A stretch of DNA of 64,000 nt. Source: Gimesia chilikensis (GTDB lineage: Bacteria > Planctomycetota > Planctomycetia > Planctomycetales > Planctomycetaceae). Below, piece after piece: positions 40,493 through 43,841 of the stretch. Position 1 is the stretch's first letter; each line of letters starts with the position of its first letter. Under the pieces are notes generated by a model. It searched no databases and had not been told where the DNA came from. It saw only the letters and a list, made by a program, of their open reading frames with translations. The position numbers and the translations under genes were made by a program. The stretch lies in assembly GCF_007744075.1 (NCBI RefSeq), contig NZ_CP036266.1, forward strand, positions 5,069,748 through 5,133,747, written 5' to 3'.

Positions 40493-40612
40493 ATTTGGAG
40501 AGGGAACTGGTATCAGTTTTGCGAAGTATCAGGCACAGGGGATAGAACATTCCCCTGGTAAACGCTCTCGCTTGATTATCTAATTCATCTCTCAGCTCGG
40601 AATGGTACTAAA

Positions 40613-41551
40613 TTGAATTCTCAACTGACCGCTCAGGTGGCTGCACTGATCAGTTCTCAAAGTTTTTCTCTGGTGGAGGGTTCCGATCCTTTCGCGCCAG
40701 AACTCCTGTGTGATTTCTGGTCGCATGGACAGAAACATATCAAACATCGACGAGCGACACTGGATGCATTCACCCAGTCAGAATCGAAAATTGAAGCTGC
40801 AGAGAACGAACTGGAAATCATTATTAGAGATTTCTTCGCCGAAGAGATGCTGATTCGAGTTGTCACCGCGATCTTCACAGCCGCTGATCAACGACGCGGA
40901 CAATGTCAGGCCGAACCCATTGCCCGCAGCCTGTTCCTTTCCTTTCTGGATGTGAAACGGATCATTTTAAAAATACTGGTGTCCGAACAGGGATTAAGTA
41001 CAGAGACTCTCAAACGCATCAATGCCACCCGTCGTTCGATTGAACGCTGGACCGACATGCTGCTTGGCCCATACGTGCAGAGACTGGGCCTCGAAGAATT
41101 TGCCCACGACGTAGAACGCGCTCGTGATTTTGGTGAAGATCAGTTGTCCGAACAGAATGCCATCCATGCTGCACAAACCTGGAATCTGATTAACGCCGGC
41201 CTGCGGATTTCATTTCCATCCGGTCTCACCAGTCAGACCACTGCGGACTGGGAGTCCATGCTGGGAGCCGTGCTGGCCTGCTTTCCGGCAGACTGTTTCA
41301 GTCAATCTGCGACGATCAAATCACTCCGACAAATACGCTACGAACGCAGCGGAACCGATGCTGAATCATCGCCAGACGGGTTGCCTGAGATTATTCGCCA
41401 GCGAATGCTTGGTCTCTTAATCAGTGATGTCAGTCCTGGTAAAATGAGCAAACAAATCAGCCCCTCTGATTCCCAAAAGCCTGCGTTCCCTTCCCCTCAG
41501 TCGATCAGTTTCACCCAGATCAGACACCGCAATCAGAAAGAGTCTTCCTGA
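40613..41551 (+). CDS. Hypothetical helical protein
   Basis: A 312-residue, mainly helical cytoplasmic protein starting at a TTG with GGAATGG 8-14 bases upstream. No signal, membrane segment or catalytic motif is visible. It is rich in Leu, Ser, Gln and Arg and ends in a Ser/Pro/Gln-rich tail. Function unknown; the next gene has its own promoter. Confidence 0.6.
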   Translation: MNSQLTAQVAALISSQSFSLVEGSDPFAPELLCDFWSHGQKHIKHRRATLDAFTQSESKIEAAENELEIIIRDFFAEEMLIRVVTAIFTAADQRRGQCQAEPIARSLFLSFLDVKRIILKILVSEQGLSTETLKRINATRRSIERWTDMLLGPYVQRLGLEEFAHDVERARDFGEDQLSEQNAIHAAQTWNLINAGLRISFPSGLTSQTTADWESMLGAVLACFPADCFSQSATIKSLRQIRYERSGTDAESSPDGLPEIIRQRMLGLLISDVSPGKMSKQISPSDSQKPAFPSPQSISFTQIRHRNQKESS

Positions 41552-41589
41552 GAGCAGAACCCGGTGCGGGAATCTTTCCGGAAAACCGG

Positions 41590-41619
41590 TTGACTTCAAA
41601 CAGGACAGAGCGGTATGAT
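41590..41619 (+). promoter_or_regulatory. Strong promoter of the aroF leader
   Basis: TTGACT (41590-41595), an 18-base spacer and TATGAT (41614-41619) predict transcription starting near 41626, about 47 bases before the leader-peptide start codon. Confidence 0.7.
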
Positions 41620-41672
41620 CAATCTGTTGATATTTTTCTGAATCCGAAAATTCTCCGATTTGGAGTTTCTCT

Positions 41673-41801
41673 GTGACACATCGGTTTGGTACTTTTAGCT
41701 TTAATTTTGTGCGGCTGTCATTTTATTCAGCCTGGCACTTTTTTAGCTATTGGTTTACCGGAACAGGTTACCTGACCGATCGAAGCATACACCGTTCATA
41801 G
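41673..41801 (+). CDS. Aromatic-rich attenuator leader peptide upstream of DAHP synthase
   Basis: An unlisted 42-codon frame starting at GTG (41673) and ending at TAG (41799-41801). A TTTGGAG ribosome site ends 7 bases before the start. Eight Phe (codons 5, 8, 10, 12, 17, 23, 24, 28), three Tyr (18, 26, 33) and two Trp (21, 27) codons fall between codons 5 and 33, so 13 of 29 are aromatic. Codons 23-28 encode F-F-S-Y-W-F. A promoter lies upstream and a perfect intrinsic terminator begins 28 bases after the stop, before aroF. This is what is expected of a ribosome-mediated attenuation leader such as pheL. The peptide itself probably has no function. Confidence 0.8.
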   Translation: MTHRFGTFSFNFVRLSFYSAWHFFSYWFTGTGYLTDRSIHRS

Positions 41802-41844
41802 TACTTGAACAGCCCCCGAAATTCGATTGGCCCTGTAACCTGCC
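41759..41844 (+). promoter_or_regulatory. Alternative RNA pairings of the aroF attenuator
   Basis: CAGGTTAC (41764-41771) is an exact complement of GTAACCTG (41835-41842), extended by GG (41760-41761) with CC (41843-41844) across a two-base bulge. Pairing these would destroy the terminator stem and act as an antiterminator. The same upstream bases can instead fold locally (CGG 41759-41761 and CAGG 41764-41767 with CCTG 41771-41774 and CCG 41776-41778), freeing the terminator. Confidence 0.65.
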
Positions 41845-41863
41845 TGGTTACAGGGCTTTTTTT
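41830..41863 (+). terminator. Intrinsic terminator in the aroF leader (attenuator)
   Basis: A perfect 11-base stem, GCCCTGTAACC (41830-41840) with GGTTACAGGGC (41846-41856), a 5-base loop and seven T residues (41857-41863). It ends 35 bases before the aroF ATG, inside the leader transcript, so it must control rather than simply end transcription. Confidence 0.9.
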
Positions 41864-41898
41864 ATTCCCTGAAACTGAATTAGAAATGAGTCAAAGCC

Positions 41899-42915
41899 AT
41901 GATTGTTGTAATGAAACCAGGCGCCACGGAAGAAATGGTTCAGGCCATGGTCAAACGGGTCGAGGAAATGGGCCTGAAGGCACACGTGATCGTTGGTGAA
42001 GAGCGCACCGTCATCGCGGCCGCGGGCATCAAACGTGACAGCCATCAGGAAGAACTGGAATCCTGTGCAGAGGTCGAAAAAGTCGTCCCGATCGTAGCTG
42101 CCTACAAGGTTGCCAGTAAAGAGACGAAACCAGAGCCGACCGTCGTCAAAACCCGGGATCTGACTATCGGCGGTTCTCACGTAGGCGTGATTGCCGGCCC
42201 CTGCTCCGTAGAAAGCGAAGAACAGATCCTGCAGGTTGCTCACCAGGTTAAGGCAGCAGGCGCGACGGGGCTTCGCGGGGGCGCATTCAAACCACGTACC
42301 AGCCCTTACTCTTTCCAGGGAATGAAAGAAGATGGCCTGAAGCTGCTGGCGCTGGCCCGCGAAGAAACGGGACTGGCAGTCGTCACGGAAGTCATGACTC
42401 CGCATCATGTCGACCTGCTCTGTCAATATGCCGACGTACTTCAAATCGGTGCCCGAAACATGCAGAACTACCACCTGCTGCAGGCCGTGGGTGAGACACG
42501 CCTCCCCGTGCTGTTAAAACGGGGACCAGCGGCTTCCATCGAAGAGTTCCTGCTGGCCGCAGAATACATCCTCGATCAGGGTAATCAGCAGGTCATTCTC
42601 TGTGACCGGGGTATTCGTACTTTCGAAACTCACACCCGCTTCACGCTTCCTTTGGCAACAGTTCCCTACCTGCATGAGCGAACTCACCTGCCTGTCGTGA
42701 TTGACCCGAGTCATGGCACCGGCGTTGCCAGCCTGGTGCCTCCCATGTGTGCCGCTGCTATCGCCGCGGGTTGTGATGGACTGATTCTGGAAGTTCATCC
42801 AGATCCCTCACGGGCCATGAGCGATGGCGCCCAGTCATTGACCCCCGAGGCATTCGCCGAGACCATGGAAACCTGTCGTAAAGTTGCAGCTGCACTCGGA
42901 AAAGAGCTGGGATAA
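41899..42915 (+). CDS. aroF: 3-deoxy-7-phosphoheptulonate (DAHP) synthase, type I beta
   Basis: A 338-residue enzyme that condenses PEP and erythrose 4-phosphate, the first step to Phe, Tyr and Trp. A ferredoxin-like regulatory domain occupies residues 1-75, as in Thermotoga maritima DAHP synthase where it binds Tyr or Phe. The catalytic barrel shows A-G-P-C-S-V-E-S, K-P-R-T-S-P-Y-S-F-Q-G, I-G-A-R-N-M-Q-N and D-P-S-H-G-T-G. Expression is probably controlled by the attenuator just upstream, giving two layers of feedback. The next gene follows after 38 bases. Confidence 0.95.
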   Translation: MIVVMKPGATEEMVQAMVKRVEEMGLKAHVIVGEERTVIAAAGIKRDSHQEELESCAEVEKVVPIVAAYKVASKETKPEPTVVKTRDLTIGGSHVGVIAGPCSVESEEQILQVAHQVKAAGATGLRGGAFKPRTSPYSFQGMKEDGLKLLALAREETGLAVVTEVMTPHHVDLLCQYADVLQIGARNMQNYHLLQAVGETRLPVLLKRGPAASIEEFLLAAEYILDQGNQQVILCDRGIRTFETHTRFTLPLATVPYLHERTHLPVVIDPSHGTGVASLVPPMCAAAIAAGCDGLILEVHPDPSRAMSDGAQSLTPEAFAETMETCRKVAAALGKELG

Positions 42916-42953: not shown

Positions 42954-43841
42954 ATGAAGTTCTGCCTGTTTTCGGTGAGTTATGCCGGTTTCTGGGGTCA
43001 GCAGCAGCTCAGCCTGACGGAATTTATCGCTCAGGCTGCTCAAACCGGCTACGACTCTGTCATGCTCATGGGGAAACGGCCTCATCTGTCACCGCTGGAT
43101 GTCACTCCCGAGCAGTTGGAGTCCATCAAAGATGCGCTCGCAGAACACCAGATTCAGTGTGCGATCATCGGTGGCTACACAGATTTCGCAGGCTCTTCAG
43201 CCACAGAGGTTCCTCTTCTGGAACTGCAGATCCAATACGTTCAGCAACTCTCCCAGATCGCCCGGGAACTGGGAGCCGGCACCGTGCGGATCTTTACCGC
43301 CTACGATACGCCCCGGATGAGTCCCCACGCACTGTGGGGACAGGTGGTCTCGGCTCTGCAGGAATGTTGTGATCGGGCAGCCGAGTATGACGTCACACTG
43401 GCAGTCCAGAATCATCACGATGTGGGTGTCCATTCCGACGCCCTGCTCGAACTGCTGCACGACATTGACCGACCAAACTGCAAGCTCGGATTTGATGCCT
43501 GGTCCCCTGCCCTGCGGGGGGAGAACCTGTATGATGCTGCCCGGAAAATGGCTCCGCACACCGCGATTACCACAAATGCAGATTACATCAGGCTACCGCG
43601 ATATTCTTATCAACCCGAGCTGATCAATTACCAGAAAGAGGAGCCCGATCTGGTCCGGGCAGTCAAATTCGGTACCGGTTTCATCGACTACTCCGCCTTC
43701 TTCCATGGTCTGAAAGAGGGGGGCTTCAATGGAATCGCCACCTATGAAATGTGCTCTCCTATCCGGGGCGGAGGCAGCCTGGAAAATCTGAATGCCTACG
43801 CGGCTGAGTATTTGACCTGGATGAAAACTCATTTACTCTGA
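42954..43841 (+). CDS. Sugar phosphate isomerase/epimerase-type TIM-barrel protein
   Basis: A 295-residue AP-endonuclease-2/xylose-isomerase-like barrel. Metal-ligand candidates are the E or H residues near V-Q-N-H-H-D, L-G-F-D-A and T-Y-E-M-C. It should act on a sugar or a hydroxypyruvate-like substrate. It is co-directional with aroF and may share its attenuated transcript. It overlaps the convergent sulfatase gene by 13 bases. Substrate unknown. Confidence 0.75.
   Translation: MKFCLFSVSYAGFWGQQQLSLTEFIAQAAQTGYDSVMLMGKRPHLSPLDVTPEQLESIKDALAEHQIQCAIIGGYTDFAGSSATEVPLLELQIQYVQQLSQIARELGAGTVRIFTAYDTPRMSPHALWGQVVSALQECCDRAAEYDVTLAVQNHHDVGVHSDALLELLHDIDRPNCKLGFDAWSPALRGENLYDAARKMAPHTAITTNADYIRLPRYSYQPELINYQKEEPDLVRAVKFGTGFIDYSAFFHGLKEGGFNGIATYEMCSPIRGGGSLENLNAYAAEYLTWMKTHLL

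Follow-up and report, generated by a model that had tools for sequence, protein, structure and literature searches.

The aroF locus and its leader region

The window, i.e. the whole stretch of 64,000 nucleotides of Gimesia chilikensis DNA analysed here, carries aroF, the product of which has an N-terminal ferredoxin-like domain (PF18152), scores 382.5 bits against TIGR01361 (cut-off 267.75) and belongs to the DAHP synthase class termed type I-beta. Upstream of aroF, a promoter, a ribosome-binding site, a short frame rich in codons for aromatic amino acids and an intrinsic terminator follow one another on the same strand (Table 1). These elements had been pointed out in a first-pass annotation, and they were recovered as described there: the two promoter hexamers and their spacing were found at the same positions, the ribosome site, the GTG frame with its 8 Phe, 3 Tyr and 2 Trp codons and the stop agree to the base, and the 11-bp stem, the seven T and the 35 bases that separate the T run from the aroF ATG are present, with a closing G-U pair in addition.

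The frame encodes the peptide MTHRFGTFSFNFVRLSFYSAWHFFSYWFTGTGYLTDRSIHRS. The promoter matches the consensus at 10 of 12 positions, although a match of this quality is by itself at chance level (1 found and 1.7 expected between positions 40500 and 43500). The terminator stem combines 11 Watson-Crick pairs and the closing G-U pair, to which the first T of the run belongs, with a 5-base loop, and its predicted fold of -22.6 kcal/mol (z -5.97) was equalled in stability by none of 200 shuffles. Thus, composition, sequence and folding point to a short leader frame rich in end-product codons and to an intrinsic terminator between this leader and the structural gene. The region around leader and terminator is T-rich. 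Scanning the window for the combination of leader and terminator gave a hit at 1 of 68 ORFs of at least 150 codons, namely aroF; with the controls from related loci, given below, the combination exceeds chance.

Table 1. Features of the aroF upstream region; coordinates refer to the window.
Feature	Coordinates	Strand	Description or basis
Sigma-70-type promoter TTGACT-18-TATGAT	41590..41619	+	TTGACT 41590-41595, TATGAT 41614-41619, 18-base spacer
GGAG ribosome-binding site	41662..41665	+	7 bases 5' of leader GTG 41673
Predicted leader peptide gene	41673..41801	+	42 codons from GTG, stop TAG 41799-41801
Predicted region 1:2 hairpin of the leader coding sequence	41680..41780	+	outer arms 41680-41691 and 41769-41780
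Putative control codons W-H-F-F-S-Y-W-F (codons 21-28)	41733..41756	+	genus conservation, folding model
Region 2, predicted antiterminator 5' strand (CAGGTTAC and CCGATCGAA)	41764..41784	+	folding, pairing, co-variation across loci
Region 3, predicted antiterminator 3' strand (TTCGATTGG and GTAACCTG)	41822..41842	+	overlaps terminator 5' arm
Intrinsic terminator	41829..41863	+	stem 41829-41857, T run to 41863
aroF, DAHP synthase with N-terminal ferredoxin-like domain, 338 aa	41899..42915	+	TIGR01361, PF00793, PF18152

Mutually exclusive hairpins

Two further RNA elements, an antiterminator and a competing leader hairpin found in the genus, are absent from the first-pass annotation and were found here. 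In the leader frame lie CAGGTTAC (41764-41771), of which GTAACCTG (41835-41842) is the perfect reverse complement, and CCGATCGAA (41776-41784), whose pairing partner is TTCGATTGG (41822-41830). The resulting hairpin has a predicted energy of -27.1 kcal/mol (z -5.39; 0 of 200 shuffles equally stable) and holds the leader stop codon inside its loop, and Tyr26-Trp27-Phe28 border its edge. As the pairing of regions 2 and 3 consumes the 5' arm of the terminator, this hairpin would be an antiterminator, i.e. antiterminator and terminator are predicted to be mutually exclusive pairings. Tested as a plain duplex between leader and terminator arm, the pairing in the window does not reach significance (19 of 50 shuffles as good), and thus the significance of the antiterminator in the window derives from the full hairpin and from the family of related loci. 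The competing hairpin, into which the coding sequence of the leader folds back (region 1:2), occupies part of region 2 (z -4.19, 0 of 200 shuffles, folded on 41676-41784).

Conservation within the genus

The genus set comprised 17 genomes including that of the window, all 17 of which contain aroF. Upstream regions were read from 16 of these genomes and from the loci of the species-genome search, yielding 14 sequences that are distinct over the last 150 bases; in the 17th genome (G126) the match ends at the contig positions of locus L007, which has the leader. All 14 sequences retain TTGACT-18-TAT(G/T)AT with varying spacer letters, the ribosome site TTTGGAGTTTCTCnGTGA, an open leader frame of 42-44 codons and the terminator. 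Eight genus regions that had been merged as duplicates were re-read separately and retain promoter, ribosome site and frame as well. The first-pass annotation had named loss of aromatic codons or of the stem in close relatives as an outcome that would refute its proposal; an aromatic leader and the stem are retained in all 14 distinct sequences.

Codon by codon the picture is mixed: the aromatic codons 8, 10, 21, 23, 26, 27 and 28 are invariant among the 14 sequences, whereas codons 5, 12, 17, 18, 24 and 33 vary; in one merged duplicate (L145) codon 23 is Leu instead of Phe. Substitutions within the genus are spread evenly over the three codon positions (327, 345 and 289 in pairwise comparisons), i.e. 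an excess at third positions was looked for within the genus and is absent, and hence it provides no support for coding. Given this even spread, for which the RNA hairpin 1:2 may be the cause, the constraint within the genus looks like one on RNA plus residue rather than on residue alone.

The region 1:2 hairpin is predicted to be paired in 99.6% of 448 cells of the 14 genus sequences, with 2 cells broken. All 6 changed cells of its outer helix are still paired, and one inner pair is swapped on both sides (G-C to A-U) in 3 sequences. However, as 24 of its 32 pairs are invariant and the observed number of pairs changed on both sides is matched or exceeded in 272 of 500 column shuffles, co-variation lends this hairpin modest support, within the genus only.

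Distribution across Planctomycetota

Upstream regions were obtained by a protein search of species genomes, from which the best 80 of 138 relatives were used, and from further genomes of the family, class and phylum. After removal of 40 duplicates, defined by identity of the last 150 bases before aroF, a span that does not cover the whole leader, and of 4 short regions, 157 of 201 regions were tested with a single detector. It asks for an intrinsic terminator at most 330 bases from the gene, for a start codon followed by a frame in which a stretch of 12 codons holds 5 or more F/Y/W, and for a frame end that lies between 12 bases inside and 110 bases before the terminator.

Of the 157 distinct regions, 102 have an aromatic leader and a terminator in front of aroF. 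These comprise 14/14 regions of the genus, 47/67 other loci of the species-genome search (nearly all planctomycetes by title; L063 is titled Nealsonbacteria), 21/29 from further genomes of the family and 9/12 from further genomes of the class. For other classes of the phylum the count is 11/31, which is not an unbiased rate, because 192 of 234 phylum genomes matched and 32 from other classes were chosen manually from the upper end of the list, one being too short. The detector found nothing at 350 other ORFs of at least 150 codons on both strands of related loci (not all of them real genes), on the reverse strands of the 157 regions (0/157) or in four records of the species-genome search titled Pelotomaculum, Pseudomonadota, Orenia and 'bacterium' (0/4).

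The remaining 55 regions fail the detector. Six of them (L056, L063, L115, L119, L169 and L195) have a frame with at least 6 aromatic residues and no terminator above the threshold; on the reverse strands of the 55 regions, 2 likewise reach 6 aromatics. In several others (L009, L011-L014, L020, L025 and L049) aroF is found a short distance 3' of an M20 peptidase-type gene, identified by Pfam for L011 and by sequence likeness for the rest.

One family of another class (f34; L185, L186, L189, L193 and L194) has mostly A/T-rich terminator stems (CCCTAAAAC...GTTTTAGGG) and extreme leaders, e.g. KYCYWVFYYFKYYYKRGGY.

The aromatic code of the leaders

The leader frame is the most aromatic of the three frames in 102/102 positive loci, with a mean of 6.6 aromatic residues per 12-codon block as compared to 1.55 and 2.44 in the other frames; as the blocks were selected as aromatic in frame, the selection itself accounts for some of the magnitude of this contrast, but not for the recurrence before aroF alone. 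The blocks contain F, W and Y in 77 of the 102 loci, F and Y in 16 and F and W in 9. Order and spacing of the residues are scrambled between lineages, as illustrated by HFFSYWFT in the window, SFWYSFWFTYRDSRGW (L026), WYGFYFWFTTWRFPGG (L022), WYSFSFYYFTDF (L071) and KYCYWVFYYFKYYYKRG (L193, another class), and the aromatic runs differ accordingly, e.g. SYWF, FWYSFWF, YYWFFF and FYYFKYYY. Moreover, the choice of Phe codons in the leaders is reversed relative to the aroF genes, the ratio TTT:TTC being 145:38 in the leader blocks and 70:281 in aroF (53 passing loci of the species search; first 1000 bases of the gene).

The antiterminator behaves differently from a coding element: the string GGGATTTCC and its variants, which directly follow the block, are read in all three frames depending on the lineage (2, 5 and 11 cases), giving TGISG, SRDFR and SPGFPG, and are thus kept as RNA and not as peptide.

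Co-variation of the antiterminator and ribosome positioning

Co-variation of the two antiterminator strands was assessed from the best pairing of the 95 bases before each terminator with the terminator's own 5' arm and loop. Across 68 non-redundant loci, own partners give a mean duplex energy of -21.18 kcal/mol and re-dealt ones a mean of -16.01 kcal/mol (sd 0.34), and 0 of 10,000 permutations were as good; an earlier set of 50 loci had given -22.0 and -17.1 kcal/mol, respectively. The covariation check suggested in the first-pass annotation thus came out in favour of a switch, as the strands of antiterminator and terminator co-vary across the phylum, e.g. GAGGGATTTCGGGGC with GCCCTGAAGTCCCTC (L120) and TAATGGTTTCAGG with CCTGAAGCCATTG (L135). 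At the level of single loci, at most 2 of 50 shuffles were as good as the real duplex in 47 of 77 loci, 30 behaving otherwise, and in 32 of 77 the own duplex ranked within the best 10% of cross pairings. A contiguous helix of at least 8 bp, a weaker test, occurs in 37/68 loci as compared to 30% of cross pairs and 15% of shuffles, and some of the longest contiguous helices fall outside the expected place. Taken as a whole, these comparisons argue for an antiterminator whose pairing precludes the terminator and whose strands co-vary with those of the latter.

The effect of a ribosome on the leader was modelled by equilibrium folding, each ribosome position being represented by folding only the RNA 3' of the ribosome. 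The predicted probability that region 3 is paired upstream, at a point when the 3' arm of the terminator has yet to be transcribed, averages 0.76 over the 68 loci for a ribosome halfway through the aromatic block and 0.22 for one at the stop codon, the former exceeding the latter in 67/68 loci. With a shuffled spacer the mid-block value is 0.51, and the real sequence gives the higher value in 65/68 loci. A first set of 77 loci had yielded 0.72 and 0.21, with block above stop in 76/77. In the window, the pairing is predicted at 0.72, 0.72 and 0.64 with the ribosome on Tyr26, Trp27 and Phe28, respectively, at 0.25 one codon past Phe28 and at 0.20 at the stop codon; in between it partly recovers, to about 0.5 at Tyr33-Leu34 (0.51 at Tyr33) and 0.45-0.49 at the last codons. 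According to this model, Tyr26-Trp27-Phe28 would be the last positions at which stalling of the ribosome still helps fully, and the control codons appear to be placed such that a stalled ribosome would free the antiterminator and a finishing ribosome would not. In the ribosome-free RNA, region 3 is paired upstream with a probability of 0.69 on average and 0.72 in the window, the stalled state exceeding the ribosome-free state in only 53/68 loci, and thus the equilibrium model does not predict termination of an untranslated leader.

A model for the control of aroF

Based on sequence comparison and folding, we consider it highly likely, with a probability of about 90%, that aroF is subject to ribosome-mediated transcription attenuation of the trp/phe type that senses Phe, Tyr and Trp together. 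The first-pass annotation had recognized the design of the phe and trp attenuators on the first shared step of the aromatic pathway, and this view is supported, the antiterminator being the part that completes the design. RNA polymerase would start at the promoter and a ribosome would translate the aromatic leader right behind it. If charged Phe-, Tyr- or Trp-tRNA became scarce, and scarcity of any one of them may suffice, the ribosome would stall on the aromatic codons and break the 1:2 hairpin, leaving region 2 free to pair with region 3, which would prevent formation of the terminator and allow transcription of aroF. If all three were plentiful, the ribosome would cross region 2 and arrive at the stop codon in the antiterminator loop, so that the antiterminator could not close and the terminator would end transcription 35 bases before aroF.

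A structured leader in front of a terminator would also be compatible with direct binding of an aromatic amino acid or of uncharged tRNA by a riboswitch or T-box, the frame being incidental, and T-boxes and candidate riboswitches have been reported for aromatic genes elsewhere, according to the accessible parts of PMC1262725 and PMC11109978. Nevertheless, this is very improbable, as the feature that recurs throughout the phylum is the aromatic frame together with the switch, and no Rfam family reaches its gathering score between 41400 and 42000, the best match being trpB with 23 bits as compared to 59. A known Rfam leader RNA or T-box was rejected on the same grounds, i.e. sub-threshold matches only in 41400-42000. 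Less probable still is a TnaC-like arrest peptide, where free Phe, Tyr or Trp or another metabolite would stall the ribosome via the nascent chain, a shortage of charged tRNA playing no part. The peptide is rich in aromatic residues and stalling is needed either way, but arrest peptides are known to keep a definite order of residues, whereas order and spacing are scrambled between lineages here, and an amino acid that switches on its own synthesis would have the wrong sign. Least probable of all is that the terminator merely ends the upstream gene (40613-41551) and that T-richness of the DNA gave rise to the aromatic frame incidentally. The upstream frame is co-oriented with 277 bases from its end to the terminator stem, the region is T-rich and the promoter score by itself is at chance level, but aromatic leaders precede aroF in 102/157 regions and 0/350 other long ORFs, aromatic codons are much scarcer in the two alternative frames of this T-rich stretch, and the antiterminator co-varies.

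Ribosome-mediated attenuation of aroF would have consequences beyond this locus. To our knowledge, little has been described of how amino acid synthesis is controlled in planctomycetes. The unusual membranes and nucleoid of these bacteria have cast doubt on the coupling of transcription and translation; if the proposed mechanism is true, the two processes are closely coupled in planctomycete cells. One attenuator would read three amino acids at the shared first step of their synthesis, with a leader gene predicted at 102 distinct loci. We lean, by a little, towards the broader view that this three-input attenuator is as old as the phylum, that in Planctomycetota the supply of Phe, Tyr and Trp, read jointly by one leader peptide, governs how carbon enters the shikimate pathway, instead of control by repressors of the TyrR/TrpR kind, and that an antiterminator strand in the last codons of the leader encloses the stop codon, so that the finishing ribosome sits in the switch.

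Relation to known attenuators

The trp and phe attenuators of E. coli respond to a single amino acid each, control end-branch operons and have their region 2 after the leader stop codon. The planctomycete leaders differ in that the leader strand with the best pairing does not extend past the stop codon in 56/68 loci, and resemble the E. coli leaders in their end-product codons, in the predicted exclusive pairing of antiterminator and terminator and in the proposed coupling to translation, traits of the E. coli systems that are outlined in the accessible text of PMC11802643. For E. coli aroF itself an attenuator has been hypothesized, as stated in parts of PMC8632094 and of PMC2659441, the latter citing Camakaris 1980.

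A close parallel is Corynebacterium glutamicum, where an aroR leader (Phe-Tyr-Phe) precedes aroF (PMC11802643 citing Neshat 2014; PMC4046766) and where, as far as the accessible parts of both sources go, aroF is transcribed more strongly when Phe is limiting and does not respond to the supply of Tyr. Both cases appear to share attenuation of a DAHP synthase gene by way of a leader that carries aromatic codons; C. glutamicum belongs to another phylum, and unlike its Phe-Tyr-Phe leader, as given in these excerpts, the planctomycete blocks carry F, Y and W in 77/102 loci. In Acholeplasma, the candidate frame uORFC-13-1 before aroF, with a U run coding for Phe and a terminator, has 24 representatives in Acholeplasma and environmental sequences, each with at least one Phe codon, according to the accessible part of PMC8632094. 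It thus resembles the leaders described here in its upstream frame, its Phe codons and its terminator, but, unlike them, is presented in that part of the source without naming Tyr or Trp. Moreover, Merino predicted attenuators, i.e. terminator and antiterminator, before operons with aroA I-beta, and hence before the same type of DAHP synthase gene, in Thermus thermophilus, Enterococcus faecalis and others (Table 7 of PMC1173090, as far as accessible); in contrast to the present case, the text of PMC1173090 contains neither 'leader peptide' nor any of four planctomycete terms.

As aroF attenuation is known in Corynebacterium and has been proposed in Acholeplasma, leader-peptide control of DAHP synthase is not new as such. 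For planctomycetes, PMC4833913 gives statistics on the number of leader genes at short distance and does not use the words aromatic, aroF or DAHP in its main text, and the accessible parts of PMC11109978, PMC1262725 and PMC2864571 show no such element for this group. The statement of the first-pass annotation that no such control of aroF had been described in planctomycetes thus stands for the open-access literature in its accessible parts, where no leader-peptide attenuator of a planctomycete gene was found. Attenuation itself is classic; the three-amino-acid leader before aroF, widespread in Planctomycetota, would be a form of it for which this literature gave no earlier description.

Other aromatic genes and neighbours of aroF

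Many genomes of the family hold a second DAHP synthase copy with 46-51% identity to the query. The leader was found in 0 of 20 such copies (L206-L225) taken from 38 listed; two of them, L211 and L215, have a terminator and weak frames with 1 and 4 aromatics, respectively. Likewise, in the genome of the window the detector found no leader at three further genes, two with PF04715 (anthranilate/aminodeoxychorismate synthase type) and one with PF00800 (prephenate dehydratase type), with start sites set mechanically. The switch seems to be tied to one enzyme, that of the entry step.

Next to the leader, the 312-aa frame on its 5' side (40613-41551, + strand) has no Pfam-A or NCBIfam match at E 0.001. 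The gene directly 3' of aroF (42954-43841, + strand) encodes a xylose-isomerase-like TIM-barrel protein (PF01261) with no obvious link to the pathway and is possibly co-transcribed with aroF. Among 120 genomes of the family, 39 have only a weak aroF match, with best E values between about 1e-27 and 1e-5, and in 3 there is no match; these genomes may use another type of DAHP synthase, and 4 of the 39 are 64-78% complete. In one genus genome, a weak second match with 31% identity (G119:C1:6270633-6271484) spans three in-frame TGA codons.
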